Assembly: GCF_030376615.1 (NCBI RefSeq)
Contig: NZ_JARRAB010000001.1
Location: 186,001-250,000, forward strand
Direction: 5' to 3'
DNA: 64,000 nucleotides
Source of the DNA: Pseudomonas sp. sp1636
Lineage (GTDB): Bacteria; Pseudomonadota; Gammaproteobacteria; Pseudomonadales; Pseudomonadaceae
The stretch's first letter is position 1. The number at the start of each line of letters is the position of its first letter. Of this stretch, positions 8,370 through 52,151 are shown one piece after another. The notes beneath the pieces were generated by a model, which saw only the letters and a list, made by a program, of their open reading frames with translations, did not search any database and was not told the DNA's origin. The translations under genes and the position numbers were made by a program.

Positions 8370-8517
8370 TTAGCAGGCTGTTGAAAAACTACCTGCGTTG
8401 CCGATGCGTCGTTAAAAACAGGCTCAAAATGCTCATTTACAACTCGTAAACTGCGCTTTTTCGCCTGTTTTTGCCTAGCCTCGGCTGCCTCGCCTACGTT
8501 TTTCAACGGCCTGTTAG
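8370..8517. mobile_element. 148-bp MITE-like element, copy A (iscS/iscU gap)
   Basis: Bracketed by TTAG direct repeats (8370-8373, 8514-8517). Terminal inverted repeats are about 19 bp with one mismatch (CAGGCTGTTGAAAAA on the left; CAGGCCGTTGAAAAA read inward from the right). Inside, AAAAACAGGC and GCCTGTTTTT form a second stem around a TTTAC/GTAAA apex. About 90% identical by eye to the copy at 20768, in opposite orientation. The right bracket contains the TAA stop codon of iscS. No transposase is present. Confidence 0.85.
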
Positions 8518-9728
8518 TGTGCCGCCCACTCGACCTTGGACAGATCCACACCCTCTTTGAACATATCCCACAGCGGCGACAATTCGCGCAGCTTGGTGAC
8601 CGCCTCGCGAACCTTTTGCGCGGCGTAGTCGACCTCTTCCTCGGTGGTGAAACGGCCGAAGGTAAAACGGATCGAACTGTGCGCCAGCTCGTCGTTACGG
8701 CCCAGGGCGCGCAATACGTACGAGGGTTCCAGCGAAGCCGAAGTACAGGCCGAACCCGACGACACCGCCAGATCCTTGAGCGCCATGATCAACGACTCGC
8801 CTTCGACATAGTTAAAGCTGAGATTGAGATTATGCGGCACCCGCGAGGTCATGCTGCCGTTGACATACAGTTCTTCCAGGCCGTCGACCTGCTCGAAGAA
8901 GCGATCACGCAAGGCCTTGATGCGCTGGTTTTCCTGGGCCATTTCTTCCTTGGCGATACGGAAAGCTTCGCCCATACCGACGATCTGGTGAGTCGCCAGG
9001 GTACCGGAGCGCATGCCGCGCTCATGGCCGCCGCCATGGGTCTGGGCTTCCAGGCGCACACGCGGCTTACGCCGCACGTAGAGCGCACCAACCCCCTTGG
9101 GGCCGTAGGTCTTGTGTGCCGAGAAGGACATCAGGTCGACCTTGAGCGCTTCTAGATCGATCGCCACCTTGCCGGTGGACTGCGCCGCATCGACGTGGAA
9201 CAACACGCCGCGCGCACGCGTCAGCTCGCCGATGGCAGCGATATCGTTGATGGTGCCGATTTCGTTGTTCACATGCATGATCGACACCAGAATGGTGTCC
9301 TCGCGCAGCGCCGCCTCGACCATGGCCGGCGTAATCAGCCCGTCTTCGCCCGGCTCGATGTAGGTCACCTCGAAGCCTTCGCGCTCCAACTGGCGGGTGG
9401 TATCCAGCACCGCCTTGTGCTCGATCTTCGAGGTGACGATGTGCTTGCCCTTGCCGCTGTAGAAATGCGCAACACCCTTGATCGCCAAGTTATCCGACTC
9501 AGTGGCACCGGAGGTCCAGACAATCTCGCGCGGGTCGGCATTGACCAACTCGGCGACCTGACGACGGCCGGTTTCAGCAGCTTCCTCGGCCTTCCAGCCG
9601 AACACATGGGAGCGCGACGCCGGGTTGCCGAAGTTGCCATCGACCAGCAAGCACTCACTCATTTTCTGCGCCACACGCGGATCGACCGGGGTGGTGGCGG
9701 AATAATCGAGGTAAATCGGCAATTTCAT
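8514..9728 (-). CDS. iscS: cysteine desulfurase IscS
   Basis: PLP enzyme that takes sulfur from L-cysteine for Fe-S clusters, tRNA thiolation and other pathways. The PLP lysine is in [12 protein letters not shown] and the catalytic Cys is in the mobile loop [16 protein letters not shown]. Starting at the ATG at 9728 ([14 protein letters not shown]) gives 404 residues, the standard length; the frame is open upstream to 9827 without homology. The TAA stop is supplied by the TTAG bracket of the adjoining repeat element. Confidence 0.98.
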
Positions 9729-9777
9729 TGACTCTCTCCTAATCAGGTTTCTGGCCACACGGACCGGCACCCCACGC

Positions 9778-10269
9778 TCAATCGACAGAGGATGCTTCAA
9801 TTTTATCCTGGTGCAGCATCCTGCCATTGCTGCGGCGCTGATCCTGGCACTGCGCGATTTCTTGCACTTCGCGGCGCATCACCAGATCAGCCAAACTAAT
9901 ACCACTGAGGAACGCATGAATCTGCTGGCTCAGGTCGCACCACAAATGATGGGTCAAGCAGGTGTCGCCGTCATGGCAATCGCCCAGCCCCTGACAGCGC
10001 GTGGCATCGACCGACTCGTTGACCGCATCGATCACCTCAACCACCTGAATGCCCCGCATATCGCGCGCCAGCTGATAACCGCCACCCGGACCACGCACAC
10101 TGGAAACCAGATTGCCCCGACGCAGCTTGGCAAACAGTTGCTCGAGGTATGAAAGGGAGATCCCCTGACGCTCGGAAATGTCTGCCAGGGACACCGGCCC
10201 ATGCTGCGCATGCAGCGCCAAGTCCAGCATGGCGGTAACGGCGTAACGGCCTTTGGTGGTCAGTCGCAT
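9778..10269 (-). CDS. iscR: Fe-S cluster-sensing transcriptional regulator IscR
   Basis: Rrf2-family repressor of the isc operon. The N-terminal winged helix ([18 protein letters not shown]) precedes the [2Fe-2S] ligands C92, C98, C104 and H107, all present, so the protein should bind a cluster. 163 residues. First gene of the isc operon, 49 bases before iscS. An IscR-like operator overlaps its own promoter (10310-10334), consistent with autorepression. Confidence 0.97.
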
Positions 10270-10301
10270 GGAGGATTACCACAGAATCACGATTTGGCGC
10301 G

Positions 10302-10330
10302 AGTATGCAATTCCCGAGTATTTAAGTCAA
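10302..10330 (-). promoter_or_regulatory. sigma70-type promoter of the isc operon
   Basis: Read on the minus strand: -35 TTGACT (10330-10325), 17-bp spacer, -10 CATACT (10307-10302). It lies 33 bases upstream of the iscR ATG, so the leader is short. Confidence 0.75.
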
Positions 10331-10334
10331 CTAT
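10310..10334 (-). promoter_or_regulatory. putative type-1 IscR operator
   Basis: A 25-bp site reading ATAGTTGACT on its left half and TACTCGGGAAT on its right half (minus strand). This follows the known type-1 IscR consensus, in which ATASYYGACT pairs with YAGTCRRSTAT. It covers the -35 hexamer, the right place for repression by holo-IscR. Recognised by pattern, not by a search. Confidence 0.7.
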
Positions 10335-10408
10335 AAGACCCAGCGCCTTACTCGGGATTAGCCGCAACCGGAGGCGGCCCAGCATAGCAAACCGCTCGCC
10401 CAGACGCA

Positions 10409-11188
10409 TCAAGCCTCAGGCTTACCATCCTGATCCTTGCACACGCCGACGAAGTCCTCATCACGCAACGCCGGCAACTCCTTGGCGTAGTAGTCGCTTC
10501 CCAACTCATTAAGCGCCTTGCACATACCTTCCAGGCGCCCATCGACCGCCTGCAAGTGATCGAGCAACTGACCAATGGCCCGCGCCACCGGATCCGGCAT
10601 GTCCTGACCGACACCGTAGGCATCGAAACCCAGCTTCTCCGCCATGGCCTGGCGCTTGGCCGCCTGCTCATCATCCACCTTGACGATGATCCGCCCGGGA
10701 ATGCCGACGGCAGTCGCGCCTGCCGGCACCTCCTTGGTCACCACCGCATTGGAGCCGATCTTCGCCCCCGCCCCCACCGTGAACGGCCCGAGCACCTTGG
10801 CGCCCGCACCGACCACCACGCCATCTTCCAGCGTCGGATGGCGCTTGCCCTTGTTCCAACTGGTGCCACCCAGGGTCACGCCCTGATACAGGGTGACATC
10901 GTTGCCGATTTCGGCCGTCTCGCCGATGACGATGCCCATGCCATGGTCAATGAAGAAGCGCCGACCGATCTTCGCCCCCGGATGGATCTCGATCCCGGTC
11001 AGCCAGCGCCCCAGATTGGACACCACCCGCGCCAACCACTTCCAACCGGACGTCCACAGCGCATGGGCCAAACGATGCAGCCAGACCGCATGCAGACCCG
11101 GGTAGCAGGTCACCACCTCAAGCGCATTGCGCGCCGCCGGATCGCGATGGAATACGCCCTGGATATCTTCCCGCATGCGCTCAAACAT
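10409..11188 (-). CDS. cysE: serine O-acetyltransferase
   Basis: First step of cysteine synthesis: acetyl-CoA plus L-serine to O-acetylserine. Short N-terminal helical part, then a left-handed beta-helix of hexapeptide repeats (for example [40 protein letters not shown]) holding the catalytic His of DHG. The start MFERMRED at 11188 gives 259 residues; the frame is open to 11218 but that stretch lies inside trmJ. Overlaps trmJ by 8 bases. Being next to the isc cluster fits its role in supplying cysteine to IscS. Confidence 0.95.
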
Positions 11189-11960
11189 CAGTTTTCCCCT
11201 GCTTATGGTGCTCACCACGCGCCGCCTTGACGGTTTCCGTCAGAATGCCGCGCAAGATATTCATTTCCAGCTTACTGATACCACTACGCCCGTACAGGCG
11301 CCGCAAGCGGCTCATCAAATGCCGCGGCTTGGCCGGGTCGAGAAAGCCGATCTCGACCAAAGCGAGCTGCAGATGCACATAGAAGGACTCCAGCTCATCC
11401 GCCGTCACCGGCTGCACACTGAGCATCGCGGTGGTTTCCAGCTTAGCGGTCTTGGTCGGCCGATTCTGCGCCGCCAACCAGGCCATGCGCACTTCGTATG
11501 CCAAGACCTGCACCGCCGCCGCCAGATTCAATGAACTGAACTCCGGGTCGGACGGGATGTGCACGTGAAACTGGCAACGCTGCAACTCCTCGTTGGTCAG
11601 GCCGGCGTACTCACGACCGAACACCAGGGCCACTTCGGCGCCCTGCATCGACTGCTCGCACGCGGCCAACCCGCACTCGCGCGGATCGAGCAACGGCCAG
11701 GGAATGCGCCGATCGCGCGCACTGGTGCCCAACACCAGGCTGCAACCGACCAGCGCCTCTTCCAGCGTGCCGACCACCTGCGCGGCCTCGAGAATATCAG
11801 TCGCACCCGAGGCCCGAGCCACCGCATCGCCACTGGGAAAGTCCAGCGGGTCGACCAGCACCAACCGCGACAGCCCCATGTTTTTCATGGCGCGCGCGGC
11901 ACCGCCGATATTGCCGGGATGACTGGTATTGACCAAAACCACTCGAATATTTTGCAGCAA
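11181..11960 (-). CDS. trmJ: tRNA (cytidine/uridine-2'-O-)-methyltransferase TrmJ
   Basis: SPOUT-fold methyltransferase that modifies the ribose of nucleotide 32 in the tRNA anticodon loop. Motifs: [19 protein letters not shown] at the N-terminus, [13 protein letters not shown] in the middle, and the knot-forming [19 protein letters not shown]-terminal helical extension (about 165-259) is typical of TrmJ. Divergent from suhB, with 145 bases between the start codons. Co-directional and overlapping with cysE. Confidence 0.95.
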
Positions 11961-12105
11961 CGCAAGCGCTCACATGGACAGCCAAGGGCAGCAAAGCTTA
12001 CAGAACCACCCAAGGTAATGCCATGCAAGACACAGACGGCACTTCATCCACCAGTCTTTTCTGCTAATATGGCCGGCTTTCTTTAACGACCCAGGTGAAT
12101 CGCCC

Positions 12106-12921
12106 ATGCAGCCCATGCTGAATATCGCCCTGCGCGCGGCCCGCAGCGCCGGTGAAATGATTTTCCGCTCGATCGAACGCTTGGACGTCATCTCGGTCGA
12201 CGAGAAAGATGCCAAGGATTACGTGACCGAAATCGATCGCTCTGCCGAGCTACTGATCATTCAGGCCCTGCGCAAAGCTTATCCGACCCACAGCTTCCTC
12301 GGCGAGGAAGGCGGCCTGATCGAAGGCAGCGGCGATGGCGCCGACTACCTGTGGATCATCGATCCGCTGGACGGCACCACCAACTTCATCCGCGGCGTGC
12401 CGCATTTCGCCGTCAGCCTGGCCTGCAAATACCGCGGCCGACTGGAGCACGCCGTGGTCATCGACCCGGTGCGCCAAGAAGAATTCACCGCCAGCCGCGG
12501 CCGCGGCGCCGCCCTCAACGGCCGCCGCCTGCGCGTCAGCTCACGCAAGAGCCTGGACGGCGCCCTGCTCGGCACTGGCTTCCCGTTCCGCGACAGCCAG
12601 CTCGACAACCTGGAAAACTACCTGGGTATGTTCCGCAACCTGGTCGGCCAAACCGCCGGCGTCCGCCGCGCCGGTGCCGCCAGCCTGGATCTGGCTTACG
12701 TGGCCGCAGGCCGCTTCGATGCCTTCTGGGAGTTCGGCCTGTCCGAATGGGACATGGCCGCCGGCGCCCTGCTGATCCAGGAAGCAGGCGGCCTGGTCAG
12801 CGACTTCACCGGCGGCCACGAATTCCTCGAGAAAGGCCAGATCGTCGCCGGCAACACCAAGTGCTTCAAAGCGGTTCTGACGGCCATCCAGCCGCATCTT
12901 TCCGCCTCAATGAAACGCTGA
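12106..12921 (+). CDS. suhB: inositol-1-monophosphatase family protein SuhB
   Basis: Mg-dependent, Li-sensitive phosphatase; in Pseudomonas and E. coli it also acts in rRNA antitermination and virulence control. Metal-binding motifs are present: GEEGG, DPLDGTTNFIRG and WDMAAGALLIQEAGG. 271 residues, standard. Single-gene unit ended by a strong hairpin terminator at 12935-12960. Confidence 0.96.
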   Translation: MQPMLNIALRAARSAGEMIFRSIERLDVISVDEKDAKDYVTEIDRSAELLIIQALRKAYPTHSFLGEEGGLIEGSGDGADYLWIIDPLDGTTNFIRGVPHFAVSLACKYRGRLEHAVVIDPVRQEEFTASRGRGAALNGRRLRVSSRKSLDGALLGTGFPFRDSQLDNLENYLGMFRNLVGQTAGVRRAGAASLDLAYVAAGRFDAFWEFGLSEWDMAAGALLIQEAGGLVSDFTGGHEFLEKGQIVAGNTKCFKAVLTAIQPHLSASMKR

Positions 12922-12934
12922 TCAGGCGACAACT

Positions 12935-12960
12935 AAAAAACCGGCCTCGGCCGGTTTTTT
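12935..12960. terminator. bidirectional intrinsic terminator after suhB
   Basis: AAAAAACCGGCC and its complement GGCCGGTTTTTT flank a two-base loop. The A-run and T-run let it work in both directions, for suhB and for the convergent glycine-zipper gene. Confidence 0.9.
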
Positions 12961-12967
12961 ATTAGCC

Positions 12968-12996
12968 ACAAAAAAAGCGCCCCGCAGGACGCTTTT
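12968..12996 (-). terminator. second terminator for the glycine-zipper gene
   Basis: On the minus strand AAAAGCGTCC and GGGGCGCTTTTTT form a GC stem (with a small mismatch) followed by a T-run, 12 bases after the stop at 13009. Confidence 0.7.
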
Positions 12997-13008
12997 CCAT
13001 TTGCAGGG

Positions 13009-13545
13009 TTACTGAACCGTCTCAGTCAAGACCAACTGCCCATCCTTGACTGGAATCCGCCGGCCCGGATCGCTGGCCATACGCACCCGCCCCTCCTTGC
13101 CATCCAACTGATACTTGACGTCATAACCGACCACTTTCTCACTGGTGTCGGTCACCGTGCTGCAGCGGGTTTCAGTGGTGGTATAGGTGTCACCGGCCTG
13201 CATGTTGCCCTGCACCTTGTTGCCGGCATAACCGCCGCCAACGGCACCGGCCACGGTGGCGATCTTCTTGCCGGTGCCGCCGCCCACCTGATTACCCAGC
13301 AAACCGCCGACCACCGCCCCAATCGCCGTTCCGGCAATCTTATGCTGATCCTGCACCGGCTTCTGCCGGGTCACAGTGACGTCCTTGCAGACCTCGCGCG
13401 GCGTCTTGATCGTTTCATTGACGGGTTGCACGGCAAGCACTTCCGCGTACTCGGGGCCACTTATCAGACTGTAAGTGGCGACGGCGCCGCCCGCCGTAAC
13501 CCCAACAGCACCCAGCACCGCACCAACGAGCATTGATTTGTTCAT
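13009..13545 (-). CDS. glycine zipper 2TM domain protein
   Basis: Envelope protein of unknown exact role. An N-terminal membrane segment (residues 5-28, LVGAVLGAVGVTAGGAVATY) is followed by a glycine-zipper pair (about 72-108: GTAIGAVVGGLLGNQVGGG then KIATVAGAVGGGYAGNKVQG), the pattern of PF05433, then a C-terminal beta-rich part with two Cys residues overall. Related in domain to SlyB/PcP-type lipoproteins, but there is no lipobox here. Same position as PA3819 in P. aeruginosa. Function not assigned. Confidence 0.85.
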   Translation of the reverse strand: MNKSMLVGAVLGAVGVTAGGAVATYSLISGPEYAEVLAVQPVNETIKTPREVCKDVTVTRQKPVQDQHKIAGTAIGAVVGGLLGNQVGGGTGKKIATVAGAVGGGYAGNKVQGNMQAGDTYTTTETRCSTVTDTSEKVVGYDVKYQLDGKEGRVRMASDPGRRIPVKDGQLVLTETVQ

Positions 13546-13664
13546 GGCAACTCCTGATTTTCGCTTATCAGGCGCATGGCGCCCAATCTCCTCGCCGTTG
13601 GACAGGAGCGACCCGGCGCAAGTTCAACACCCGTTCAAGCCGCCCCGCCAGAACCGCGACAGAC

Positions 13665-14570: not shown

Positions 14571-14579
14571 CTCAGCCCC

Positions 14580-16448: not shown

Positions 16449-16463
16449 GACGCCGCCCGTTAT

Positions 16464-16490
16464 GACGCGGGGCGCCTTAAGCGCCCCGTC
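16464..16490. promoter_or_regulatory. GC hairpin between yajC and secD
   Basis: GGGGCGC and GCGCCCC flank a CTTAA loop within an outer GACGC/CGTC pairing. There is no T-run, so it is more likely an mRNA stability or processing element than a terminator. Lies between the yajC stop and the secD start. Confidence 0.55.
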
Positions 16491-16510
16491 GGATGGTAAG
16501 AGTGTGAAGC

Positions 16511-16843: not shown

Positions 16844-16882
16844 TTAACACTCCTGTTGGAAACTACTCGAAAACGATGATTA

Positions 16883-19062
<2,180 letters not shown>

Positions 19063-19160: not shown

Positions 19161-19173
19161 TCGCCGCCATTGT

Positions 19174-19816: not shown

Positions 19817-19832
19817 CCCTGCGGTTCTGAAG

Positions 19833-20713: not shown

Positions 20714-20727
20714 CACACGGCAAACGA

Positions 20728-20752
20728 AAAAGCCGGCTCAACGCCGGCTTTT
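20728..20752. terminator. bidirectional terminator after the RDD gene
   Basis: AAAAGCCGGC and GCCGGCTTTT flank a TCAAC loop. Perfect 10-bp arms with A-run and T-run ends. Confidence 0.85.
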
Positions 20753-20767: not shown

Positions 20768-20915
20768 CTAGCCGGCCGCTGAAAAACGTAGGCGAGGCAG
20801 CCGAGACAAGGCAAAAACAGGCGAGGAAGCGGAGTTTACGAGCTGTAAATGAGCATTCCGAGCCTGTTTTTAACGCCGTATCGGCAACGTAGGTAGTTTT
20901 TCAACGGCCTGCTAG
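20768..20915. mobile_element. 148-bp MITE-like element, copy B (next to lptG)
   Basis: Same length as copies A and D; bracketed by CTAG at 20768-20771 and 20912-20915. It runs in the opposite orientation to copy A. Inner stem AAAAACAGG(C)/(G)CCTGTTTTT is conserved. The right bracket CTAG provides the TAG stop of lptG (20912-20914). It lies between the terminator of the RDD gene and the convergent lptG. Confidence 0.87.
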
Positions 20916-21973
20916 CCGGCGCGACGCAATAGGCCGACACCGGCCAGGGCGCAAACCGCCGCCGGGATCAGCACGGCAAACAAGGGCGAGAAACCGAACA
21001 CCAGGCTGGAAGGCCCGAGCAAATCCTGGGCGATGCGGAACACGAAGCCCACCACCACCCCGGTGAAGACCCGCTGGCCCAGGGTTACCGAGCGTAACGG
21101 GCCGAAGATGAAGGATATCGCCATCAGTACCAGCGCGGCAGTCACCACCGGCTGCAGCACCTTGCTCCAGAATGCCAGCCAGTACTGGCCATTATTCAAA
21201 CCCTGCTCGGCCAGGTAGTGGATATAGCGCCACAGCCCGGTTACCGACAACGCCTCAGGCTCCAGCACCACGGTACCGAGCAACTGCGGGTTCAGCTCGA
21301 CATCCCAGCGCTCATTCGGCGCGTTTACCACCTCGGTGCTGCGCTCGCGGAAATGCGTGGTCGCCACATTCTCCAGCTGCCAGTGATCGCCCTGAAACTG
21401 CGCGCGCCGGGCAAAACTGGATGACAGCATGTGGCGCTGCTCATCGAAGCGGTAACGGGTCACACCGAACAGCACGCCGTTGGGCTGTACCGCGTTGATA
21501 TGCACGAACTCCTCGCCTTGACGATGCCACAAGCCGCGCCTGGAACTCTGCGCCTCGCCACCGCCCTGAGCCATGGCGCGGTCGGCCTGGGCCCGGTTTT
21601 CGCTCCAGGGCGCCAGGTATTCGCCGATCAGAATGCCGACCAGCATCAACACCAGCATCGGCTTCATCACCGCCCAGACGATGCGCCCGATCGAAACCCC
21701 GGCGGCGCGCATGACGGTCAACTCGCTGTTACTGGCCAGACTGCCCAGCCCGATCAGGCAGCCAATCAAGGCCGCCATCGGCAACATCTCGTACACCCGT
21801 CGCGGCAGGGTCAAGAAGACGTACCAGGCGGCTTCCTGCAGGCCGTACCCCCCCTCGACATCGCCCATCTCATCGATAAAGGCGAACAACAAGGCCAGAC
21901 CGACGATGACCCCCAGTACGGTGAGAATCGCGAAAAACACCTGGGTGCCGATGTAACGATCCAATTTAAGCAT
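20912..21973 (-). CDS. lptG: LPS export permease LptG
   Basis: Inner-membrane subunit of the LptB2FG ABC transporter that extracts lipopolysaccharide. Typical start MLKLDRYIGTQVF, six predicted spans (three at each end), and a central periplasmic beta-jellyroll. 353 residues from the ATG at 21973; the frame is open to 22048 but overlaps lptF without homology. Overlaps the lptF end by 8 bases. The stop codon is part of the repeat element copy B. Confidence 0.95.
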   Translation of the reverse strand: MLKLDRYIGTQVFFAILTVLGVIVGLALLFAFIDEMGDVEGGYGLQEAAWYVFLTLPRRVYEMLPMAALIGCLIGLGSLASNSELTVMRAAGVSIGRIVWAVMKPMLVLMLVGILIGEYLAPWSENRAQADRAMAQGGGEAQSSRRGLWHRQGEEFVHINAVQPNGVLFGVTRYRFDEQRHMLSSSFARRAQFQGDHWQLENVATTHFRERSTEVVNAPNERWDVELNPQLLGTVVLEPEALSVTGLWRYIHYLAEQGLNNGQYWLAFWSKVLQPVVTAALVLMAISFIFGPLRSVTLGQRVFTGVVVGFVFRIAQDLLGPSSLVFGFSPLFAVLIPAAVCALAGVGLLRRAG

Positions 21974-33708: not shown

Positions 33709-34464
33709 TCACTTTGCCTCGCTGCTTCCCGGCGCTCGCCGTTGCAGTTGCTCGAACAGGCTGTCCACCGCCACGGCCAGCAGGCCGATCAGGATCGCGC
33801 CCTGCAGGATAAAGGCCGTATTGCCGGTGACCAGCCCCGAGATCACCGGGTCGCCCAGGGTACTGGCGCCGATAGTGGAGCCGATAGCCGCGGTGGCGAT
33901 ATTGATGGTCACCGAGGTGCGGATACCGGCCAGGATAACGTTCAAGGCCAGCGGCAACTCCACCTGCGCGAGCACCTGCAGCGGCGCCATGCCCATGCCG
34001 CGCGCCGCCTCCAGCACCGCCGGGTCGATACCGCGCAGGCCCGCCAGGCTGTTGCGCAGGATCGGCAGCAGGCCATAGAGGATCAGGGCGAACAGGGTCG
34101 GCCCGCTGCCGAAGCCGAGCGCGGGCACCGCCAGGGCCAGCACCGCCACCGGCGGTATGGTCTGGCCGATCGAGGCGACCTGGCTGACCAGCGGCAGAAA
34201 ATCCGCGCCCCAGCGCCGGGTCACCATGATCGCCGCGCCCACCCCGAGCAGGCTGGAAACGCCGGCCGCCAGCATGACCAACAGCAGATGGCTGCCGAGC
34301 AGGTCGATGAAGGCGGCGCGGCCGTAGATCACCGTGCGGCTGTCCGGTTCGAGCAGACGAAACAGCCCGTCCAGTTCCGCCAACCCGAGCGCCGCCGCCA
34401 ACAACAGGGTCAGCCACAGCAGCGGTTGCCAGGCGCCGCCACGCAGCAACGCGAACGCGCTCAC
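33709..34464 (-). CDS. yehW: osmoprotectant ABC transporter, permease (YehW type)
   Basis: Inner-membrane subunit with the binding-protein-dependent transport fold (about five spans). EAA loop is EAARGMGMAPLQVLAQVELPLALNVI at residues 152-177 and GLVTGNTAFILQGAILIG is near the end. 251 residues. Last gene of the four-gene operon; its start overlaps the stop of the ATPase gene by 4 bases. Likely substrate glycine betaine or a related compound, by family. Confidence 0.88.
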   Translation of the reverse strand: MSAFALLRGGAWQPLLWLTLLLAAALGLAELDGLFRLLEPDSRTVIYGRAAFIDLLGSHLLLVMLAAGVSSLLGVGAAIMVTRRWGADFLPLVSQVASIGQTIPPVAVLALAVPALGFGSGPTLFALILYGLLPILRNSLAGLRGIDPAVLEAARGMGMAPLQVLAQVELPLALNVILAGIRTSVTINIATAAIGSTIGASTLGDPVISGLVTGNTAFILQGAILIGLLAVAVDSLFEQLQRRAPGSSEAK

Positions 34465-35405: not shown

Positions 35406-36568
35406 CGCCTCGCTCCAGGGTCGAAACGCTCGGCCAGCAGGCCGAACAGACTGTCCGCCAGCAGCGCCAGGGCGATGATGGGCAAGGCGCCGAGGATGAT
35501 CAGATCCATCGCCGACTGGCCCAAACCCTGGAAGATAAAGGTGCCAAAGCCGCCCGCACCGATCAGCGCGGCGACCGCCGTCAGGCCGATTGCCTGGATG
35601 CTGGTGACCCGCACGCCCTCGATGATCAACGGCATGGCCAACGGCAAACGCACCTGCAGGAACACCTGGGCGGGACTCATGCCCATGCCGCGCGCGGAGT
35701 CGATCACGCTGGGCTCGACCGCCTGCAGGGCGACGCAGGTGTTGCGCACGATCGGCAGCAGACTGTAGGCGATCAGGGCAAGCAGGGCCGGCGCCCAACC
35801 GATACCGCGGATGTTCAGCTGCTGCAGCCAGGCAAACTGGCTCGAAAGATAACTCAGCGGCGCGATCAGCAAACCGAACAGCGCCAGACTGGGAATGGTC
35901 TGGATAAAGCTCAGCAGGCCGATGCTGCCCTTGTGCGCAGCCGGATAACGGTTGAGCAACAGCGCGATGGCACAGCCGAACAGCAGGCTGCAACCCACCG
36001 CCCCGCCCACCAGCGCCAGATGGCTATACAGGGCGGCAGCGAACTGGCTGCGGCGCGACTGGTACTCGCGCAGCAGCGCCAACGGCTCCAGCCACCCCAA
36101 CCGGGCGAGCGACCACAGCAGCAGGGCCAGGGCGACGACCATCCCGAGCAGCCAGACCCGCGCGAGACGAATGCGCTGCTGCACCTCGATCAACAGCAAG
36201 CCGAGCAGAAACAGCAGGCCCCAGCCAGCCGCGCCTATGCCGACCCGCGCGTAGGGCATGTCCGCGCCGATATGCCGCGCGACACACCAGGCCAGGCTCA
36301 GGGGCAATTGCAGCAACAGGACAAACAGCACCGCCAGGGTCAACCAGTAGCGCAGGGGCGAGGGCCGCAGCGCCAGCCAGGGGCAAACCAGCAACAGCCC
36401 CGTGACCAGCAGCGCCCAGGCCGGCCCCACGGCCGTCAGCAGCCCCAGGCCATGGCCCGGGGCGATACGGTTGGGCTGGATGCTGACGAAATCCAGGCTC
36501 CACAGCAGCACCAGCGCCAGCAACGCCAGCACCGGGATAACCGTATTGGCCCGTCGTGGCAGCGTCAT
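35402..36568 (-). CDS. yehY: osmoprotectant ABC transporter, permease (YehY type)
   Basis: Larger permease of 388 residues with about eight spans, starting MTLPRRANTVIPVLALLALV at 36568; the open frame continues upstream through the binding-protein gene without homology. The EAA-type loop is DSARGMGMSPAQVFLQVRLPLAMPL near 315-340, and the end (SAMDLIILGALPIIALALL) matches the family. Overlaps the ATPase gene by 4 bases and begins 7 bases after the binding-protein stop. Confidence 0.88.
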   Translation of the reverse strand: MTLPRRANTVIPVLALLALVLLWSLDFVSIQPNRIAPGHGLGLLTAVGPAWALLVTGLLLVCPWLALRPSPLRYWLTLAVLFVLLLQLPLSLAWCVARHIGADMPYARVGIGAAGWGLLFLLGLLLIEVQQRIRLARVWLLGMVVALALLLWSLARLGWLEPLALLREYQSRRSQFAAALYSHLALVGGAVGCSLLFGCAIALLLNRYPAAHKGSIGLLSFIQTIPSLALFGLLIAPLSYLSSQFAWLQQLNIRGIGWAPALLALIAYSLLPIVRNTCVALQAVEPSVIDSARGMGMSPAQVFLQVRLPLAMPLIIEGVRVTSIQAIGLTAVAALIGAGGFGTFIFQGLGQSAMDLIILGALPIIALALLADSLFGLLAERFDPGARR

Positions 36569-37496: not shown

Positions 37497-37922
37497 GATT
37501 GATCCACCCTGTTGGTTGACGGCGCGGAACCCTGGGCACGGCAATCCCGCCGATCCGTGCCTAACAGGCCGTTGAAAACCACCTGCCTTGCCAATACTGC
37601 GGTAACCATGGCCGCAAAATGCGTATTTGCAACCCGTAAACTCTGTTTTTGACTCGCTTCGCTCGCCCCGCGGATCAGCCTGCGGCCGTTACTCCGCTAC
37701 GTTGCGTTTCGGCCATTTGCCTGGTCGTGGCGGCCTCGCCTAGATATTGCAACGGCCGCCTACGATTCCCGAGGTTGCTGCTTATGACCATAGGCAGGCC
37801 GCATGCCCACGGCAAATCGCCGGCCCATGGGCGTCGCAGCACCCGCCAATTTGCCTCCCCCGAGCGCGGACGCGGGAGGAGGCGTAAGGGCGGGCTTGCT
37901 CATGGGCAGCGCCCATCACAAC
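37497..37922. other. 426-bp spacer upstream of the osmF operon
   Basis: Contains the 203-bp decayed repeat (37561-37763), leaving no room for a usual promoter except in the 64 bases next to osmF. Between 37764 and 37922 I see no gene; GC-rich inverted patches include CATGGGC...GCCCATG-type arms. Transcription of the operon may have to cross or start inside the repeat. Confidence 0.4.
37561..37763. repeat. decayed 203-bp relative of the MITE-like element, copy C
   Basis: Left end CTAACAGGCCGTTGAAAACC and right end CAACGGCCGCCTAC match the terminal repeats of the intact copies; a central ATTTGCAACCCGTAAACT matches the ATTTACAACTCGTAAACT apex of copy A. It is longer (extra DNA between apex and right end) and its brackets differ (CTAA, CTAC). 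Same orientation as copy A. Confidence 0.65.
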
Positions 37923-44284: not shown

Positions 44285-44292
44285 GGGCCGGC

Positions 44293-44757: not shown

Positions 44758-44838
44758 TTTGCCGGTCAGAGCCGGCAGCTTGCCGCGGGTTGGCGGCTTA
44801 ATATGGCGACATTCTTCGAAAGGACACGAGCATACCTT

Positions 44839-46101: not shown

Positions 46102-46150
46102 AGCCGCAGATGCTTCTATCCTTGCAGCGAACCCGCCGAAAGGAAGCCCC

Positions 46151-47494
46151 ATGCGCCGTGTGCTCAAAGACCTGAAGATCATGCTGCTGGCCAACCTGTG
46201 GATCGTCCCGGTGCTGGCCGCCTTGATTGGCGCGCTGTTCTATTTCGTCGCCCCGCCGCCACCGATGCACGCCCGCATGGCCACCGGCGCGGAGGGCGGC
46301 AATTACCGGCTATTCGCCGAGAAGCTGAAGACGCAACTGGCCAGGGAAGGCTTCGAGCTGAGCCTGGTGCCCAGTGCCGGCTCGCGAGACAACCTCGAGC
46401 GCCTGCTGGCCGAGCAACCCGCCGTGCAGATCGCCCTGGTGCAGAGCGGCCTGGAGCGCCAGCTCGAAGATGCCGACCGCGCCCGCCTGCACAGCCTGGG
46501 CGCGGTGTATCAGGAACCGCTGTGGTTGTTCTACCGCAAGGACATTGCGCTCGAGCGCATCGCCGACCTGCTGCCGCTGCGCCTGGCCCTGGGCAGCGTC
46601 GGCAGCGGCACCCGTGCGGCCAGCGAGGCGATCCTCGCCGCCAACGCCATCAGCCCAACGCAATACTCCGCGAGCTGGCAGGATCTGGGCGGTAACAAGG
46701 CCGCCGCCGCCCTCAACGCCGGCGAGCTGGACGCCGGCTTTTTCGTCGGCCCGGCAGAAAATACGCGGGTACAGCAACTGGCGGCCAACCCGGCGTTGCG
46801 CCTGGCCAACTTCCGCCGCGCCGCCGCCTATGAAGCCCGCCTGCCGTTCTTCAAGCGCGTGACTATCGACGAGGGCCTGCTCAACCTGGCGCAGAACAGC
46901 CCACCGCAGACCACCGTCACCCTCTCCCCGGTGGCCACCCTGGCGATCAACCAGGACTTCCACCCCGGGTTGGTGCCGCTATTCCTCGAGGCCAGCCGCG
47001 AGGTGATGAAGCACGGCACATTGCTCGATCCGGCCGGCGCCTTTCCCAGCGCCGCGCCACGCACCTTCGAATTGTCCGGCGCTGCCGAACATTACTACCA
47101 GAACGGCCTGCCGCTGCTGCAGCGCTACCTGCCGTTTCGCATCGCCTCGCTGGCCGACCGCTACATCATCCTGCTGATCCCGCTGCTCGTGGTGCTGGTG
47201 CCGCTGCTCAAGGCGGTCGGGCCGCTGTATCGCTGGCGCATCCGCGCGCGCATCTACCGCTGGTACAAACACCTGCGCGAGATCGACCGGCAACTGGATG
47301 CCGGCACCCTGCCGGCACGCCTGGATAGCGAAGTCGAGCGCCTGGAACAGCTGGAGGACGAACTGGCCAAGGTCGAGGTGCCGCTGTCCTACTCCAACGA
47401 GCTGTATGAGCTGCATGTGCACCTGCGCTATGTGATCGAGCGGCTGCACACCCTGCAGCGGCGACGGGCGACCCAAGCCGGGACTCTCGGGTAA
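46151..47494 (+). CDS. TAXI family solute-binding protein, membrane anchored
   Basis: 447 residues. N-terminal span at about 14-34 (ANLWIVPVLAALIGALFYFV), a periplasmic binding domain with ATGAEGGNYRLFAEKL (the TAXI-type TGGxxGxY start), and a second span at about 337-358, followed by a cytoplasmic helical tail (LDSEVERLEQLEDELAKVEV). TRAP systems normally use a soluble binding protein and a separate permease; neither is adjacent. The two anchors and tail suggest a sensor or orphan component; this is inference. Confidence 0.85.
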   Translation: MRRVLKDLKIMLLANLWIVPVLAALIGALFYFVAPPPPMHARMATGAEGGNYRLFAEKLKTQLAREGFELSLVPSAGSRDNLERLLAEQPAVQIALVQSGLERQLEDADRARLHSLGAVYQEPLWLFYRKDIALERIADLLPLRLALGSVGSGTRAASEAILAANAISPTQYSASWQDLGGNKAAAALNAGELDAGFFVGPAENTRVQQLAANPALRLANFRRAAAYEARLPFFKRVTIDEGLLNLAQNSPPQTTVTLSPVATLAINQDFHPGLVPLFLEASREVMKHGTLLDPAGAFPSAAPRTFELSGAAEHYYQNGLPLLQRYLPFRIASLADRYIILLIPLLVVLVPLLKAVGPLYRWRIRARIYRWYKHLREIDRQLDAGTLPARLDSEVERLEQLEDELAKVEVPLSYSNELYELHVHLRYVIERLHTLQRRRATQAGTLG

Positions 47495-47538
47495 ACTGCG
47501 CGCCATCCAATGCTTAGCCGATTCCCAAGAGACCGCCC

Positions 47539-48546
47539 ATGCCGATCCGCCATTGCATCGTCCACCTGATCGACAAGAAGCCCGATGGCAGCCCTGCCGT
47601 GCTGCATGCCCGCGATACCGAGCTGGGCGCCTCGCAAGCCATCGAGAACATGCTCGCCGACCTCAACGAGAGCTACAACGCCAAACAGGGCAAGGCCTGG
47701 GGCCTGTTTCACGGCGAGTCCGGCGCCTATCCGTTCAGCGGCTGGCTCAAGCAGTACCTCGACGGCGGCCAGGACTTCGCCGCCTTCAGCCGCCAGGCGG
47801 TCGAGCACCTGCAGAAGCTGATGGAGGAGTCCAACCTGTCCACCGGCGGCCATGTGCTGTTCGCCCATTACCAGCAGGGCATGACCGATTACCTGGCGAT
47901 CGCCCTGCTCCATCACAGCGAGGGCGTGGCGGTCAACGAGGCGCTGGACGTGACCGCCGCCAAACACCTGGATCTCGGCCAGCTGCACCTGGCGGCGCGG
48001 ATCAACATCTCCGAATGGCAGAACAACGCCCATTCCAAGCAGTACATCTCCTTTATCAAGGGCAAGCACGGCAAGAAGGTCTCGGAGTACTTCCGCGACT
48101 TTATCGGCTGCCAGGAAGGCGTCGACGGCCCGGGCGAGACCCGTACCCTGCTCAAGGCCTTCAGCGACTTCGTCGAAAGCGAAGACCTGCCGGAAGAAGC
48201 CGCCCGCGAGAAAACCAAGACCCTGGTCGACTATGCCAGCAGCCAGGCCAAGCTGGGCGAACCCATGGGCCTGCAGGAGCTCTCCGGACTGATCGACGAG
48301 GAACGTCCGCGCGCCTTCTACGAGCATATCCGCAACAAGGACTACGGCCTGTCGCCGGAGATTCCCGCCGATAAGCGCACGCTCAACCAGTTCCGCCGCT
48401 TCACCGGCCGCGCCGAAGGCCTGTCGATCAGCTTCGAGTCGCACCTGCTCGGCTCGAAAATCGAGTATGACGAAGCCCAGGACACCCTGACCATCCGCAA
48501 CCTGCCGACCCAACTGACCGATCAGCTCAAGCGGCGCAAGGACTGA
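47539..48546 (+). CDS. yejK: nucleoid-associated protein YejK/NdpA
   Basis: 335-residue nucleoid-associated protein of the NA37 family; binds DNA and is known in Pseudomonas (NdpA). The start [23 protein letters not shown], the middle [17 protein letters not shown] and the C-terminal [27 protein letters not shown] are family signatures. Same position as PA3849. Followed after 11 bases by the DUF4344 gene. Confidence 0.94.
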
Positions 48547-48557
48547 GGCCGCGAGCC

Positions 48558-49409
48558 ATGCAACGGCGACGCACCGCAACGCTCATCGGCCTGGGCCTGC
48601 TGCTGGCGAGCCTGGCGCAAGCGGAGCCGGAGCCGACCAGGGCGGTCGATGAGCTGCGTTTCGTCACCGCCAACGCCGAATTCACCCTGCTGCATGAAAT
48701 GGGCCACCTGCTGATCAGCGAACTCAAGCTGCCGGTGCTCGGCCGCGAAGAGGATGCCGCCGACCAGTTGGGCTTTATGGGCCTGTTCCTGCTGTTCGAG
48801 CGCCAGCGCGATGCCGGTTTCTACGCCAGGCTGCTCGACGTCGCCGATTACTGGCGCCTGGAATGGCAACGACAAACGCCCGGTCAGGAAGAGATTAAGG
48901 CCTGGGACAGCCATGCACTGGATGCCCAGCGCTTCTTCAATATCGCCTGCCTGGCCTACGGCAGCGACCCGCAGCGCCTGGAATGGATCATCGAAGAGAC
49001 CGGGCTGCCCTATGAGCGAGCCCTCTATTGCCCGGAGGAATACCAGCAGGTGGAGCACGCGGTGAACTGGATCCGCGACTACTTCCGCCGGCCCCCGGAT
49101 CAACCTGTGCGCCATCGTATCGCGGTGGTTTATGAGCCGCCGCCCCAGCATCTCGATGGCGGCGTCGAACTGCTCGAGCGGGTGCGCGCCTCGGGCGAAG
49201 TGGAAGCGATCGCGGACAAAGCCAGCCAGACCTTCGACCTGCCCCGCGACCTGACCCTCAGGCTCGCGGCCTGCGGCGCGCCGGATGCCTGGTATAACCG
49301 CATCAGCGGCGAGCTGACCCTGTGCTACGAGCGCATACTCTACTTTCGCCAACTGGCCGGCGAACTGCAGCGCCAGCCCCCTGCTACCGCGACCAAGCAA
49401 CGCCCATGA
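48558..49409 (+). CDS. DUF4344 metallopeptidase, exported
   Basis: 283 residues with a signal peptide (1-22, ...LIGLGLLLASLAQAEPEP). Zinc motif HEMGH at 46-50 and a following Glu/Asp-rich REEDAADQLG (68-77) that probably gives the third ligand. The rest, with conserved RDYFRRPP and WYNRISGELTLCYE, matches the DUF4344 family. Overlaps the following glutaredoxin by 4 bases (ATGA), so the two are translationally coupled. Function unknown. Confidence 0.87.
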   Translation: MQRRRTATLIGLGLLLASLAQAEPEPTRAVDELRFVTANAEFTLLHEMGHLLISELKLPVLGREEDAADQLGFMGLFLLFERQRDAGFYARLLDVADYWRLEWQRQTPGQEEIKAWDSHALDAQRFFNIACLAYGSDPQRLEWIIEETGLPYERALYCPEEYQQVEHAVNWIRDYFRRPPDQPVRHRIAVVYEPPPQHLDGGVELLERVRASGEVEAIADKASQTFDLPRDLTLRLAACGAPDAWYNRISGELTLCYERILYFRQLAGELQRQPPATATKQRP

Positions 49410-49723
49410 AGAAAATTCTCGTATTACTCACGGCGCTGGCGCTCTACCAGCACTGGGGGCGGCTGCAAGACTGGTTCGACCCGGCGCCGGCCAACGGCCG
49501 CGCCGAGGTGGTGCTGTATGCCACCCAATGGTGTGGCTACTGCGCCAAGACCCGGGCGCTGCTCGCCGAGGAGGGCATTGCCTACCGCGAAGTCGATATC
49601 GAACAGAGCCGCGCCGGCCAGGCCGCGTTTCAGGCGTTGGGCGGGCGCGGCGTGCCGCTGCTCGATGTGCGCGGCGAGATCATCCACGGCTACAACCCGC
49701 CGGCCATGCGCGCGGCCTTCTGA
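49406..49723 (+). CDS. membrane-anchored glutaredoxin family protein
   Basis: 105 residues. N-terminal hydrophobic segment (MKKILVLLTALALYQHWG) precedes a glutaredoxin fold with the active site CGYC (43-46) in ATQWCGYC, cis-Pro in GVPLLDV, and GEIIHGYNPPAM at the end. Usual glutaredoxin motif is CPYC; CGYC is typical of a small Pseudomonas subfamily. Coupled to the DUF4344 gene, so it may act on that exported peptidase or on periplasmic thiols. Confidence 0.87.
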   Translation: MKKILVLLTALALYQHWGRLQDWFDPAPANGRAEVVLYATQWCGYCAKTRALLAEEGIAYREVDIEQSRAGQAAFQALGGRGVPLLDVRGEIIHGYNPPAMRAAF

Positions 49724-49773
49724 ATGCGGGCGCCCACCCGCCAGCATCGGCCGAACCCGCCCGCGACCTGTAA

Positions 49774-50709
49774 TTACAGCGCCTTGATGGCGAAGCCCAA
49801 TCGCGGGAAATGCACATGCACCACCCCGGCACGCGGGTCTTCGCGGCGCAGGATCAGCTCTTCGCGGCCGCTGAACAGCAACTCGCCCTCGACCGCATCG
49901 ACGCCGTAGTCGACGGCGGCGATCGCCACCCGCTGGCCGGCCTGGAAGCCGTTGGGCTCGACCAACGGCTCATTCGGCAAGGCCGCTGGCGTGGCGTCAC
50001 GCGCCAGCGCGATGGCCTCTTCGCCACTCATCTCGCTATGCGCACCGTGGCCGAAACCGAGCACCCGGTTCAGCCATGCGGCGACGGCCGGGTAGTCGTC
50101 GACCAGTGGCGCCGTCACCGGGGTACCGCGCAGGAACCACAATGAATGAGCCATGGCGAAGTCGGCCAGCGAGGGCTCGCCGAACAGGAAGTCGCCCGCT
50201 TCGCGCTCCAGTTGCTGCTGCAAGCGGGCCATCAGGCTTGGCCACTGGTGCCGGGCCAGCTCCAGCGGCAGGCGGCTGGCCTGGCCGCCACTGAACAGCG
50301 CGCTGCGGTCGGCCATAAAGGTCTTGAGGAATTCCGCCGGCAAACGGCCAAAACGGGCGGCAATGGACGCGGGCTGGAACACCAGGCTGACCGCATGCTG
50401 GAACAGCACCGAGTCGGCCCACTGGGCGATGCCGGCGACATTGAATTCCTGGCCTTCGGGGAATAACGCCGGGATGGCCTTTTCCGCCTCCAGACGCCGG
50501 GCGATCAGGGCACTGTCGCAATAGATGTCGGCGCCGACCTGCAGCACCGGGGTCTTGCGATAGCCTCCGGTCAAGGCGGTCAGCTCCGGTTTGGGCATCA
50601 CCGCCGGGATCAGCACCGAACGCCAGGACAGTTGCTTGAAGCCCAACAGCAGGCGAACCTTCTCGGCAAACGGCGAGGTCGGGTAATGGTGCAAGATCAG
50701 CTCGTGCAT
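49774..50709 (-). CDS. glutathione S-transferase family protein with C-terminal extension
   Basis: 311 residues. Thioredoxin-like N-terminus (ELILHHYPTSPFAEKVRLLLGFK, residues 1-80, with CDSALIARRLE contacting glutathione) and helical GST C-domain (about 85-215, with FGEPSLADFAMAHSLWFL). After residue 220 comes a separate beta-rich domain of some 90 residues (FQAGQRVAIAAVDYGVDAVEGELLFSGREELI). Standard GSTs end near 210; this fused form is conserved in Pseudomonas but its substrate is unknown. Confidence 0.85.
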   Translation of the reverse strand: MHELILHHYPTSPFAEKVRLLLGFKQLSWRSVLIPAVMPKPELTALTGGYRKTPVLQVGADIYCDSALIARRLEAEKAIPALFPEGQEFNVAGIAQWADSVLFQHAVSLVFQPASIAARFGRLPAEFLKTFMADRSALFSGGQASRLPLELARHQWPSLMARLQQQLEREAGDFLFGEPSLADFAMAHSLWFLRGTPVTAPLVDDYPAVAAWLNRVLGFGHGAHSEMSGEEAIALARDATPAALPNEPLVEPNGFQAGQRVAIAAVDYGVDAVEGELLFSGREELILRREDPRAGVVHVHFPRLGFAIKAL

Positions 50710-50773
50710 GACAGGCTCCGCAGCGATGGCTAAACCAGCAGCTTACCCGCGCCGACAGCAACGGCCTACCCGC

Positions 50774-51082
50774 TTAGCCTGATAGCTCGCCATCAGCCAC
50801 AGCGATAAGACTGCCGCCTGCCACCAGCGCTTCCTTGGCCGCCTTGCCCAGCCGCTTGATCGTGCGCTCGCGGCGCAGGGCATCGCCCTTGCCCGCACAG
50901 GCTTCGGTGTAGACCAGCGCCAGCGCCGGGCTGGAGTAAAAGAAGCGCGCGCCCTTGCCGCTCTGGTGCTGGGCGAAACGCCGCTGCGGATTGTCGCTGA
51001 TCCCGCAATAGAGCGCGCCGTTCTGCGCCCGCACCAGATAGACGAACCAGGCTTTGCCGGTGGCCTCAGTCATCGCAGGCAC
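50774..51082 (-). CDS. GIY-YIG nuclease family protein
   Basis: 102 residues from the first ATG (or 99 from MTEATGK at 51073). [19 protein letters not shown] is the GIY-YIG motif (VYL...YCG), followed by the catalytic Arg in [13 protein letters not shown]. The UPF0213/YhbQ group, single-domain and of unclear role; homing-type activity is not expected. Confidence 0.88.
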
Positions 51083-51097
51083 AGCCCACCAACCGAG

Positions 51098-51808
51098 TCA
51101 GGCGAACCATTCGCGGGCCGTGCGCCACAGGCAGATAGCGACGAAATAGACAGAGGCCAGCCCCCAGACCAGCAGCAGCCAGGTCTGGTTGAGTGGGTAC
51201 TGCACGACCAGCAAGGCGCAGGCCGCCATCCACACCAGGGTTACGCCGATATTCAGCGGCATGAACTGCTTGACCCGAAACGGGTGGAGAAACTTCATCT
51301 TGGTCAGGGTCAGGCCCGACAGCAGCAGGACAGTGGCGAAGCTCAGCCAGGGAGCGAAGTCCAGCAGGTAGAGGTACACCACCACCACGTTCCAGGCCGC
51401 CGGAAAACCGACGAAGTAGTTGTCCTGGCTCTTCATGTTGAGGTTGCAGAAGCAGAACAACGACGACAGCAGGATCACCCCGACCGACAGCAGCAGGGTG
51501 TATTCGGGCAGAGGAATGAAGCGATACACGAAGATCGCCGGAATGAACACATAGGTGAGGTAGTCGATCACCAGATCCAGGGTCGAACCATCGAAGTGCG
51601 GCAACACCCCCTTGACGTCGAATTTGCGCGCCAGGGTGCCGTCCAGGCCGTCCACCAACAGCGCCAGGCCCAACCAGAGCAGACAGACCTGCGGCCGGCC
51701 ATCGAGTACGGCCAACAAGGCCAGCAACGCCAGAATCACCCCGCTGGCAGTGACGGCGTGCACGCTCCAGGCCTTGGCTTTGCTTGCGGACAGCAACATT
51801 ACACTCAT
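51098..51808 (-). CDS. pcs: phosphatidylcholine synthase
   Basis: Condenses CDP-diacylglycerol with choline to make phosphatidylcholine in one step. CDP-alcohol phosphotransferase motif with DGTLAR at 56-61 preceded by another Asp-Gly and followed by Asp-rich DLVIDY, about eight spans. 236 residues from MSVMLLSASKAKAW at 51808; the open frame is 16 codons longer. Presence implies a PC-containing envelope and reliance on external choline, which fits with the osmoprotectant transporter in the same window. Confidence 0.9.
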   Translation of the reverse strand: MSVMLLSASKAKAWSVHAVTASGVILALLALLAVLDGRPQVCLLWLGLALLVDGLDGTLARKFDVKGVLPHFDGSTLDLVIDYLTYVFIPAIFVYRFIPLPEYTLLLSVGVILLSSLFCFCNLNMKSQDNYFVGFPAAWNVVVVYLYLLDFAPWLSFATVLLLSGLTLTKMKFLHPFRVKQFMPLNIGVTLVWMAACALLVVQYPLNQTWLLLVWGLASVYFVAICLWRTAREWFA

Positions 51809-52003
51809 GATCAGACTTCCTGACGGACTGGCTCTTGGCTGGCAGCTGAAGGGCAACTGCTCCCGGTTAGCACCGCGCTCTGCAGCGGTCTGTTATTCAA
51901 CGAATAGTCCAGGTTTACAGCTTGCGCCGGAGGTCGCTGAGGGTTCAGACCAGAAAGCCTACCATTGCGTTGGTTAAATCGGCTAAAAGCCGTGAAGCAA
52001 GCG
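51809..52003. other. spacer upstream of pcs
   Basis: No gene seen. Contains the probable pcs promoter region on the minus strand, but no hexamers good enough to list. The MITE-like copy D begins at 52004. Confidence 0.35.
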
Positions 52004-52151
52004 CTAGCAGGCCGTTGAAAAATGTAGGCGAGGCAGGCAAGACAAGGCAAAAACGGCCGAGGAAGCGGAGTTTACTGGCTGTAAATGAGCATTCCGAGGC
52101 CGTTTTTAACGCAGTATTGCCAACGCAGGTAGTTTTTCAACGGCCTGCTAG
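52004..52151. mobile_element. 148-bp MITE-like element, copy D (pcs/NTF2-like gap)
   Basis: Bracketed by CTAG (52004-52007 and 52148-52151). Terminal inverted repeats CTAGCAGGCCGTTGAAAAA are perfect over 19 bp. The inner stem is AAAAACGGCC/GGCCGTTTTT, against AAAAACAGGC/GCCTGTTTTT in A and B: paired changes on both arms. Right bracket CTAG gives the TAG stop of the NTF2-like gene. Oriented as copy B. Confidence 0.88.

Follow-up and report, generated by a model that had tools for sequence, protein, structure and literature searches.

A 140-bp MITE of Pseudomonas lies across the stop codons of genes at about three to four times the frequency expected by chance (own genome of the window, 46 copies), and in ten genomes together 57 of the 134 copies examined straddle a stop. 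The explanation that we favour, and hold to be reasonably probable, is that the brackets of the element are duplications made by an ISPst12-like transposase, that copies landing on a stop leave the protein unchanged and survive, and that copies hitting coding or operon DNA do not persist.

The window (the whole analysed stretch of 64,000 nucleotides) contains three copies, A, B and D, each 140 bp long, non-coding and with inverted ends CAGGCCGTTGAAAAA or near, which are flanked by 4-bp direct repeats of the form YTAR (TTAG, CTAG and CTAG, respectively), next to a degenerate fourth copy:

8370..8373: left probable target duplication TTAG of copy A
8374..8513, minus strand: copy A, 140-bp MITE
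8514..8517: right probable target duplication TTAG of copy A; 8514-8516 are the iscS stop TAA, minus strand
8514..9728, minus strand: iscS, cysteine desulfurase, 404 aa, Pfam Aminotran_5, ends CAC TAA
20727..20752: GC-rich hairpin with A and T tracts, found by eye and read as a terminator common to lptG and the RDD gene
20768..20771: left probable target duplication CTAG of copy B
20772..20911, plus strand: copy B, 140-bp MITE
20912..20915: right probable target duplication CTAG of copy B; 20912-20914 are the lptG stop TAG, minus strand
20912..21973, minus strand: lptG, 353 aa, Pfam LptF_LptG, ends GGC TAG
37565..37757, plus strand: degenerate fourth copy, left end CTAA-CAGGCCGTTGAAAAC, right end decayed; off any stop
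52004..52007: left probable target duplication CTAG of copy D
52008..52147, plus strand: copy D, 140-bp MITE
52148..52151: right probable target duplication CTAG of copy D; 52148-52150 are the stop TAG of the SnoaL/NTF2-like gene, minus strand
52148..52618, minus strand: SnoaL/NTF2-like gene, 156 aa, Pfam SnoaL_2, ends CGC TAG

The preliminary description had located the stops of iscS, lptG and the NTF2-like gene in the right brackets of the three copies and had taken the target to be TAA or TAG together with the base before it, which ends the sense codon. All coordinates were confirmed, and the three gene ends agree with this target. Since YTAR contains TAA or TAG whichever strand is read, landing on a stop copies that stop. 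It had further been proposed that the brackets act as stop codons, with the duplication rebuilding the stop and leaving the protein unchanged. The stop would indeed stay in place, but the bracket is not a new stop, since the genes end there anyway in relatives. IscS has the same terminal residue in all 29 relatives that lack the element, 22 of which have a YTAR stop. For LptG the last residue is number 353 in each of 29 relatives, but just three of them have a YTAR stop and most have TGA; one of the 29, L431, matched the element end loosely (three mismatches, no bracket), which was treated as its terminator. The SnoaL-like protein has the same terminal residue, followed as CGC TAA, in two of three relatives, the third being 12 codons longer. 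Judged from these sequences, the protein ends predate the insertions where this could be seen.

In size and structure the element corresponds to a bacterial MITE. Its copies measure 39-256 bp, have 15-bp inverted ends and carry no transposase gene, YTAR is found on both sides (identical in 22 of the 29 copies from fully scanned contigs), and there is an autonomous IS that has these ends and this target, namely the ISPst12-like IS of genome G012 and locus L119. The brackets are likely the target duplications of an ISPst12-like transposase around an IS5-type 140-bp MITE. REP and REPIN elements, which are moved by RAYT, are short palindromes without target duplication; this identity was rejected because of the YTAR duplications. 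Rfam at gathering thresholds reported only tRNA in the window, and phage records gave no match to the element. It matches 20 plasmid records, 19 of them from Pseudomonas, and in none of the 20 is a feature annotated under the match.

The IS of G012 is 1331 bp long, encodes a 374-aa transposase and is named ISPst12 in annotated Pseudomonas plasmids (99.7% identity). The transposase reaches 260.6 bits with the IS5 family model NF033581 (cut-off 140) and exceeds the cut-offs of both PF05598 (DUF772) and PF01609 (DDE_Tnp_1); no solved structure related to it by sequence was found. ISPst12-like IS share the CAGGCCGTTGAAAAA ends and the YTAR repeats with the MITE, and one of six ISPst12 copies in G012 lies on a stop. 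Unlike this transposase-bearing element, the MITE has only the terminal 15-16 bp in common with it. Among 30 DUF772 loci examined, both ends are perfect only in L119, while L116 has diverged ends and L117 one end. An intact partner was not found in the own genome of the window: a whole-genome DUF772 search gave three hits (best 55 bits), and tblastn over 1.89 Mb of the 4.46 Mb only fragments of 29-42% identity. A partner in the same genome would strengthen the assignment, although a MITE is not strictly defined by it.

Comparable systems are known. MITEPsy1 from Pseudomonas syringae has 100 bp and ends GGAAGGTCTGAAAAAGCC, is ascribed to ISPsy2 and occurs in six copies, two of them interrupting loci; in the accessible part of that paper, stop codons appear solely in the annotation of truncated transposases (PMC3189936). 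Going by that part, both are short IS5-type MITEs of Pseudomonas without transposase and with a 4-nt duplication (CTAG or YTAA for MITEPsy1), but the element described here differs in its 140 bp, its CAGGCCGTTGAAAAA ends and its match to ISPst12. It also shares the Py-T-A-Pu target with IS5 of E. coli, for which CTAG is commonest (15 of 24 in a quoted table) and which, in the available sections, is treated at regulatory regions and for gene activation and not with stop codons as targets (PMC5493358). MITEAba12 from Acinetobacter is, from what its available sections say, likewise an IS-borrowed MITE with target duplications; these are, in contrast to the 4-bp YTAR, 9-bp AT-rich ones without identifiable sequence trend, its partner is ISAba12, and where stop codons are mentioned, the subject is a truncated gene or stops within the element (PMC6382973). 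No description of a stop-codon bias was found among the open-access papers that the literature searches listed.

The preliminary description would have been refuted if stop overlap had been no commoner than the supply of YTAR sites gives, but an excess is present. On the fully scanned contigs 17 of the 29 copies overlap a stop, compared with 4.4 expected from the tetranucleotide-typed supply (P = 8.5e-8). Together with 17 further copies, 26 of the 46 YTAR-bracketed copies in the examined stretches of the own genome straddle a stop, with a GC-matched expectation of 8.4 (P = 3.6e-9); leaving out A, B and D, which prompted the analysis, the count is 23 of 43. In nine other genomes it is 31 of 88, six of these genomes being sampled by best matches to copy B (30 loci each from G275, from G134, from G103 and G308 together and from G144 and G340 together). 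A GC preference of the target was rejected as the cause, since the excess persists in the GC-matched test.

These counts depend on several rules. Genes were called with our own codon-usage script rather than a published caller, and the background YTAR sites of the window's genome served for the other genomes too. Copies were treated as independent; duplicates were screened by identical 80-bp flanks in the six sampled genomes only, and none was removed. No pair was present in 11 of 27 further own stretches, in 43 of the 120 six-genome loci, in 12 of 19 stretches of G001 and in four of seven of G008 (seven of its 12 listed places were taken in). From the fully scanned contigs, three paired copies with a non-YTAR repeat were dropped (two of ATAG type, both on stops, and one CTGG/CTAG, off a stop), as were 14 single YTAR-bracketed ends, of which four have a stop on the side that can be seen. 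The pair at C56:164370 has one decayed bracket and is countable only as a single end, and one own copy among the stop hits (C12:171370) shares 95 bp with a called gene on the opposite side.

One could assume that plain supply is sufficient, CTAG and its kin being rare in coding DNA and ending many genes, so that this much stop overlap would be expected of any YTAR element. About 24% of the called genes (314 of 1306) do end in YTAR, and stops make up 294 of the 352 YTARs from the stop to position +10, enough to explain completely the preponderance of stops over positions +1 to +10. Across all non-coding YTARs, however, supply is contradicted, by the 17 hits against 4.4 given above and by the GC-matched comparison within 50 bp of the 3' end (26 observed, 17.3 expected of 34, P = 0.002). 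It holds within the last 10 bp and is very improbable as the general explanation.

Per available YTAR, the scaled rate is 67 per 1000 at stops and 65 per 1000 in the next 10 bp, so that the hot zone is the 3' end of the gene and not the stop as a site; the predominance of stops in this zone follows from supply. The rate at stops is 2.7 times that of sites 11-100 bp downstream and 11 times that of sites far from a gene end. Thus, of the earlier suggestion of strong selection for gene-end sites, the enrichment of the 3'-end zone stands, but stops are not special per site.

The equal rates at the stop and in the next 10 bp, with the drop beyond, speak for a second explanation, in which an IS5-type transposase would prefer gene 3' ends, for instance where transcription or translation ends, and the excess would be present at insertion already. 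It agrees with the lack of an age trend: nearest-copy identity is alike for stop and non-stop copies, and 23 of the 58 copies that have perfect ends and identical repeats are on stops, as are 34 of the 76 others (P = 0.6). The same figures do not bear out the neutral-insertion 'strategy' that had been suggested. Moreover, IS5 of E. coli is described, in the sections available, as needing additional structural features besides the tetranucleotide (PMC5493358), and four of 25 IS copies visible from one side end on a stop there (21 of the 25, L235-L255, being at contig edges). Full-length ISPst12 copies, on the other hand, are by our grouping on stops in three of 20 cases, near the 14% supply and too few to separate target choice from survival. 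Of 49 IS loci examined, 13 have both ends (two at 48% identity were left out), 25 the left end only and 11 neither; of four plasmid IS copies, two represent the same site and were counted once. Local GC explains little, and stops in tight tandem gene pairs are avoided, which a gene-end preference alone does not predict. We consider target choice rather unlikely.

The explanation by survival would run as follows: an ISPst12-type transposase moves the MITE and duplicates the 4-bp YTAR where it lands; on a stop, the duplication would rebuild the stop and spare the gene; copies in coding or operon DNA would be lost, and the harmless ones, since they duplicate a stop-containing target, would survive. 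We infer that such a transposase moved the copies and that the stop excess arises through selection once they have inserted, not through target choice. We count two scarcities as signs of selection. Coding YTARs carry none of the 46 own and five of the 88 other copies, although 1201 of 3332 counted sites are coding, and stops with a tandem gene overlapping or at most 30 bp on received two of 56 hits, compared with 74 of 295 sites.

Some observations run counter to survival. Pure survival predicts a stop share that rises with age, and none is seen (P = 0.6). Sites 11-100 bp downstream should be nearly as harmless, yet they are hit 2.7 times less; lost terminators may explain this lower rate. 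Copy B lies between lptG and the hairpin at 20727..20752, which is not among the results of a consensus terminator scan (none near copy B), and the relative L409 has a similar hairpin about 20 nt past the lptG stop. The autonomous IS, presumably younger, is with its few copies close to supply, and the stop share is low in G001 (0 of 7) and G275 (5 of 21 among its best 30 matches to copy B). Copy A is located between iscS and iscU. These two genes normally form one operon, so not every copy avoids operons.

Stop hits lean towards convergent genes and fall at convergent pairs in 27 of 56 cases, compared with 87 of 295 sites (P = 0.008). The stop excess, which we count for the favoured explanation, also holds within single classes of region. 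Within convergent intergenic regions, 27 stop and 21 internal hits face 85 and 199 sites (P = 0.0008), and 26 and 14 hits face 73 and 93 sites when regions are limited to 300 bp (P = 0.02); in tandem regions 28 stop and 38 internal hits face 208 and 967 sites (P = 6e-6). Five copies split one YTAR that serves both convergent genes as stop, and both stops are kept; only two such shared YTARs without a copy occur on the fully scanned contigs.

This leaning to convergent pairs would also fit a useful 3' end, i.e. a strong hairpin on both strands that may shield or terminate the message, the copy being kept as helpful. A single long hairpin is predicted for copy B on both strands, at -61.4 and -57.9 kcal/mol and with z about -6 for each. 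An own terminator-like hairpin follows three of 62 genes with a copy on the stop. Among the background genes 27 of the 198 that are non-operonic have one (P = 0.07), or 27 of all 296. The comparison is weak; of 49 off-stop placements 0-100 bp past a 3' end, 45 lack any hairpin; the window's genome alone, with three of 27, has no real deficit. Although most of the inner stem is missing from them, all six own copies of at most 60 bp are on stops, and a strong terminator at copy A would starve iscU. We consider such a benefit improbable.

It is conceivable, if doubtful, that stop codons have become the built-in safe harbour of a DDE transposon lineage, with a target that holds TAA or TAG on both strands, so that one landing can split two stop-sharing genes and leave both intact, and with insertion machinery that favours the last codon. 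The findings further suggest that in these genomes several 3' untranslated regions start with a hairpin of 140 bp. Given that 57 of 134 copies are on stops, five of them on shared convergent ones, selection and target choice can be told apart with this family. Target sequence and duplication length together could decide which genes a transposon touches harmlessly, which is a simple and testable account.

The three intact 140-bp elements of the window (A, B and D) are copies of a single element. Their inverted termini read CAGGCCGTTGAAAAA or a close variant, and a 4-bp direct repeat of the type YTAR (Y = C/T, R = A/G) brackets every copy, namely TTAG for copy A and CTAG for copies B and D. The stop codon overlap that had been described for these copies is correct, since the TAA of iscS, the TAG of lptG and the TAG of the SnoaL/NTF2-like gene all lie inside the right-hand repeats:

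8374..8513, copy A: right TTAG contains the stop of iscS; gene on the minus strand; last codon and stop CAC-TAA
20772..20911, copy B: right CTAG contains the stop of lptG; gene on the minus strand; GGC-TAG
52008..52147, copy D: right CTAG contains the stop of the SnoaL/NTF2-like gene; gene on the minus strand; CGC-TAG
37565-37757, fourth copy: decayed, off any stop

The window also holds two 175-nt stretches with 70% identity in adjacent genes (33943-34117 and 35633-35807), perhaps paralogous domains.

The preliminary description also held that the brackets act as stop codons. This part is not supported as worded: the genes end where they do in relatives that lack the element, so the bracket creates no stop of its own. 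In all 29 relatives lacking the element, IscS has its last residue at position 404 (stop of YTAR type in 22), and LptG likewise stops after residue 353 in each of 29 relatives. The lptG stop is a YTAR in only three of these and TGA in 23, which suggests that it changed to TAG or TAA in the lineage of the window before the element landed. The SnoaL-like protein has the same last residue, with CGC-TAA, in the relatives G012 and G008, and is 12 codons longer in G001.

For the genome of the window, six contigs in full and 20 kb of a seventh were analyzed. A codon-usage script called 1306 genes, 314 of them with a YTAR end, and every pair of element ends with YTAR brackets within the mismatch limits was listed. 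Seventeen of the 29 listed copies lie on a stop, while 4.4 are expected from the non-coding supply of the same tetranucleotide (P = 8.5e-8). Another 17 pairs, nine of them on a stop, came from further sequence surrounding copies that had been listed. In total, 26 of 46 copies are on a stop versus 8.4 expected from non-coding YTARs of like local GC content (P = 3.6e-9), i.e. three to four times. When sites were also matched for lying ≤50 bp from a gene 3' end, 26 were observed versus 17.3 expected of 34 (P = 0.002). The 27 stop-bearing genes look real, with a median length of 258 aa and a per-codon coding score resembling that of all genes.

Elements in this genome contain nested palindromic blocks and form a size ladder (39, 52, 83, 140, ~198 and at most 256 bp), and all six copies of ≤60 bp are on stops (P = 0.03 versus the rest). 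Two further copies have ATAG-type instead of YTAR repeats (G000:C45:180680 and C56:104445); both are on stop codons.

The bracketed end is present in 59 of 398 same-genus genomes scanned, the own genome included. The best-matching 120 loci of the six richest other genomes yielded 77 pairs, 28 of them on stops (G275, 5/21; G134, 4/16; G103, 5/12; G308, 6/10; G144, 4/9; G340, 4/9). Together with G001 (0/7), G008 (2/3) and G012 (one MITE, a short non-coding element without transposase, on a double stop), 31 of 88 copies from nine other genomes overlap a stop. Outside the own genome the excess is weaker, and it is absent in G001. The nearest published element found is MITEPsy1, described in PMC3189936 as IS5-type with a 4-nt duplication CTAG or YTAA; for E. 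coli IS5, PMC5493358 gives the target consensus Py-T-A-Pu, with CTAG the commonest. No report of a stop-codon bias was found in the open-access literature searched, and a term search of the main text of a 2024 review of prokaryotic MITEs (PMC10969869) did not return 'stop codon'.

Rates were calculated as pooled copies per 1000 available YTARs, scaled to 46 copies. Stops have a rate of 67 and the positions 0-10 bp after the 3' end one of 65; the rate is 25 at 11-100 bp, 16 at 101-250 bp and 6 beyond 250 bp, and coding DNA has 1.4. A stop is thus hit no more often than a site in the adjoining 10 bp, and 294 of the 352 YTARs in the gene-end zone (stop to +10) are stops. The copies do sit exactly at gene ends, as had been claimed, but the cause acts on the gene end and not on the stop as such.

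Two kinds of depletion point to the removal of harmful copies. Coding YTARs make up 1201 of 3332 counted sites, yet they hold none of the 46 own and only five of the 88 other copies. Moreover, stops overlapped or followed within 30 bp by a tandem gene account for 2/56 stop hits versus 74/295 sites, and those with a convergent neighbour for 27/56 versus 87/295. Promoters are not expected in convergent intergenic regions. Even there, stops receive more hits than inner sites do: stop and inner hits stand at 27 to 21 and the sites at 85 to 199 (P = 0.0008); in regions up to 300 bp the ratios are 26 to 14 and 73 to 93 (P = 0.02). Five of the 134 copies, from five genomes, split a YTAR that serves both convergent genes as stop, and both stops are kept (loci L092:16926-17065, L173:3571-3756, L284, L319 and L369). 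Four of these copies have identical bracket repeats. Of the ten proteins at the five sites, nine carry a Pfam domain that passes its cut-off and one has a domain just under it, and the contigs analyzed in full contain only two shared-stop YTARs without a copy. A pure survival account is opposed by the lack of an age trend in stop overlap among the copies compared and by the fall in rate beyond 10 bp.

The likely mover is an ISPst12-type IS. The 1331-bp IS of G012 shares its ends with the MITE and is bracketed by CTAG. It encodes a 374-aa transposase that matches the IS5 model and is 99.7% identical to plasmid proteins annotated as ISPst12. One of six IS copies in G012 is on a stop, and genome contigs of relatives hold two further full copies on stops; among full copies of ≥70% identity it is 3/20, by our own grouping, in which sites may recur between assemblies. 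Four of 25 copies visible from the left only are on a stop on that side, all four among 21 contig-edge copies (two Stutzerimonas assemblies and one Pseudomonas assembly). A whole-genome DUF772 search and tblastn over 1.89 Mb of 4.46 Mb found no intact ISPst12 relative in the own genome, so its copies may be stranded. A gene entering the element end in another frame meets a TGA 15 nt from the repeat start (YTA RCA GGC CGT TGA), so that two of three reading frames stop at once; several IS and MITE copies end genes via that TGA.

For both strands of copy B the predicted fold is a single long hairpin (-61.4 and -57.9 kcal/mol; 0/200 shuffles as stable), so a copy on a stop would set a strong hairpin beside the end of translation. 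A terminator-like hairpin of their own was found for 3/62 stop-marked genes versus 27/198 others (P = 0.07), a lead rather than a result that stop-marked genes have one less often. Copy A (interval 8326-8514) has iscS on one side and iscU on the other, two genes that usually form one operon and are normally co-transcribed. This opposes a role of the element as a strong terminator, and copy A is likely tolerated within a probable operon.

Overall, the concentration on stops is real, extends past the window and lies well above YTAR supply. That the target duplication would spare the gene follows from the sequence. Selection may account for the excess and is the likeliest of three candidate explanations, followed by target choice and then by use of the element as a 3' end.
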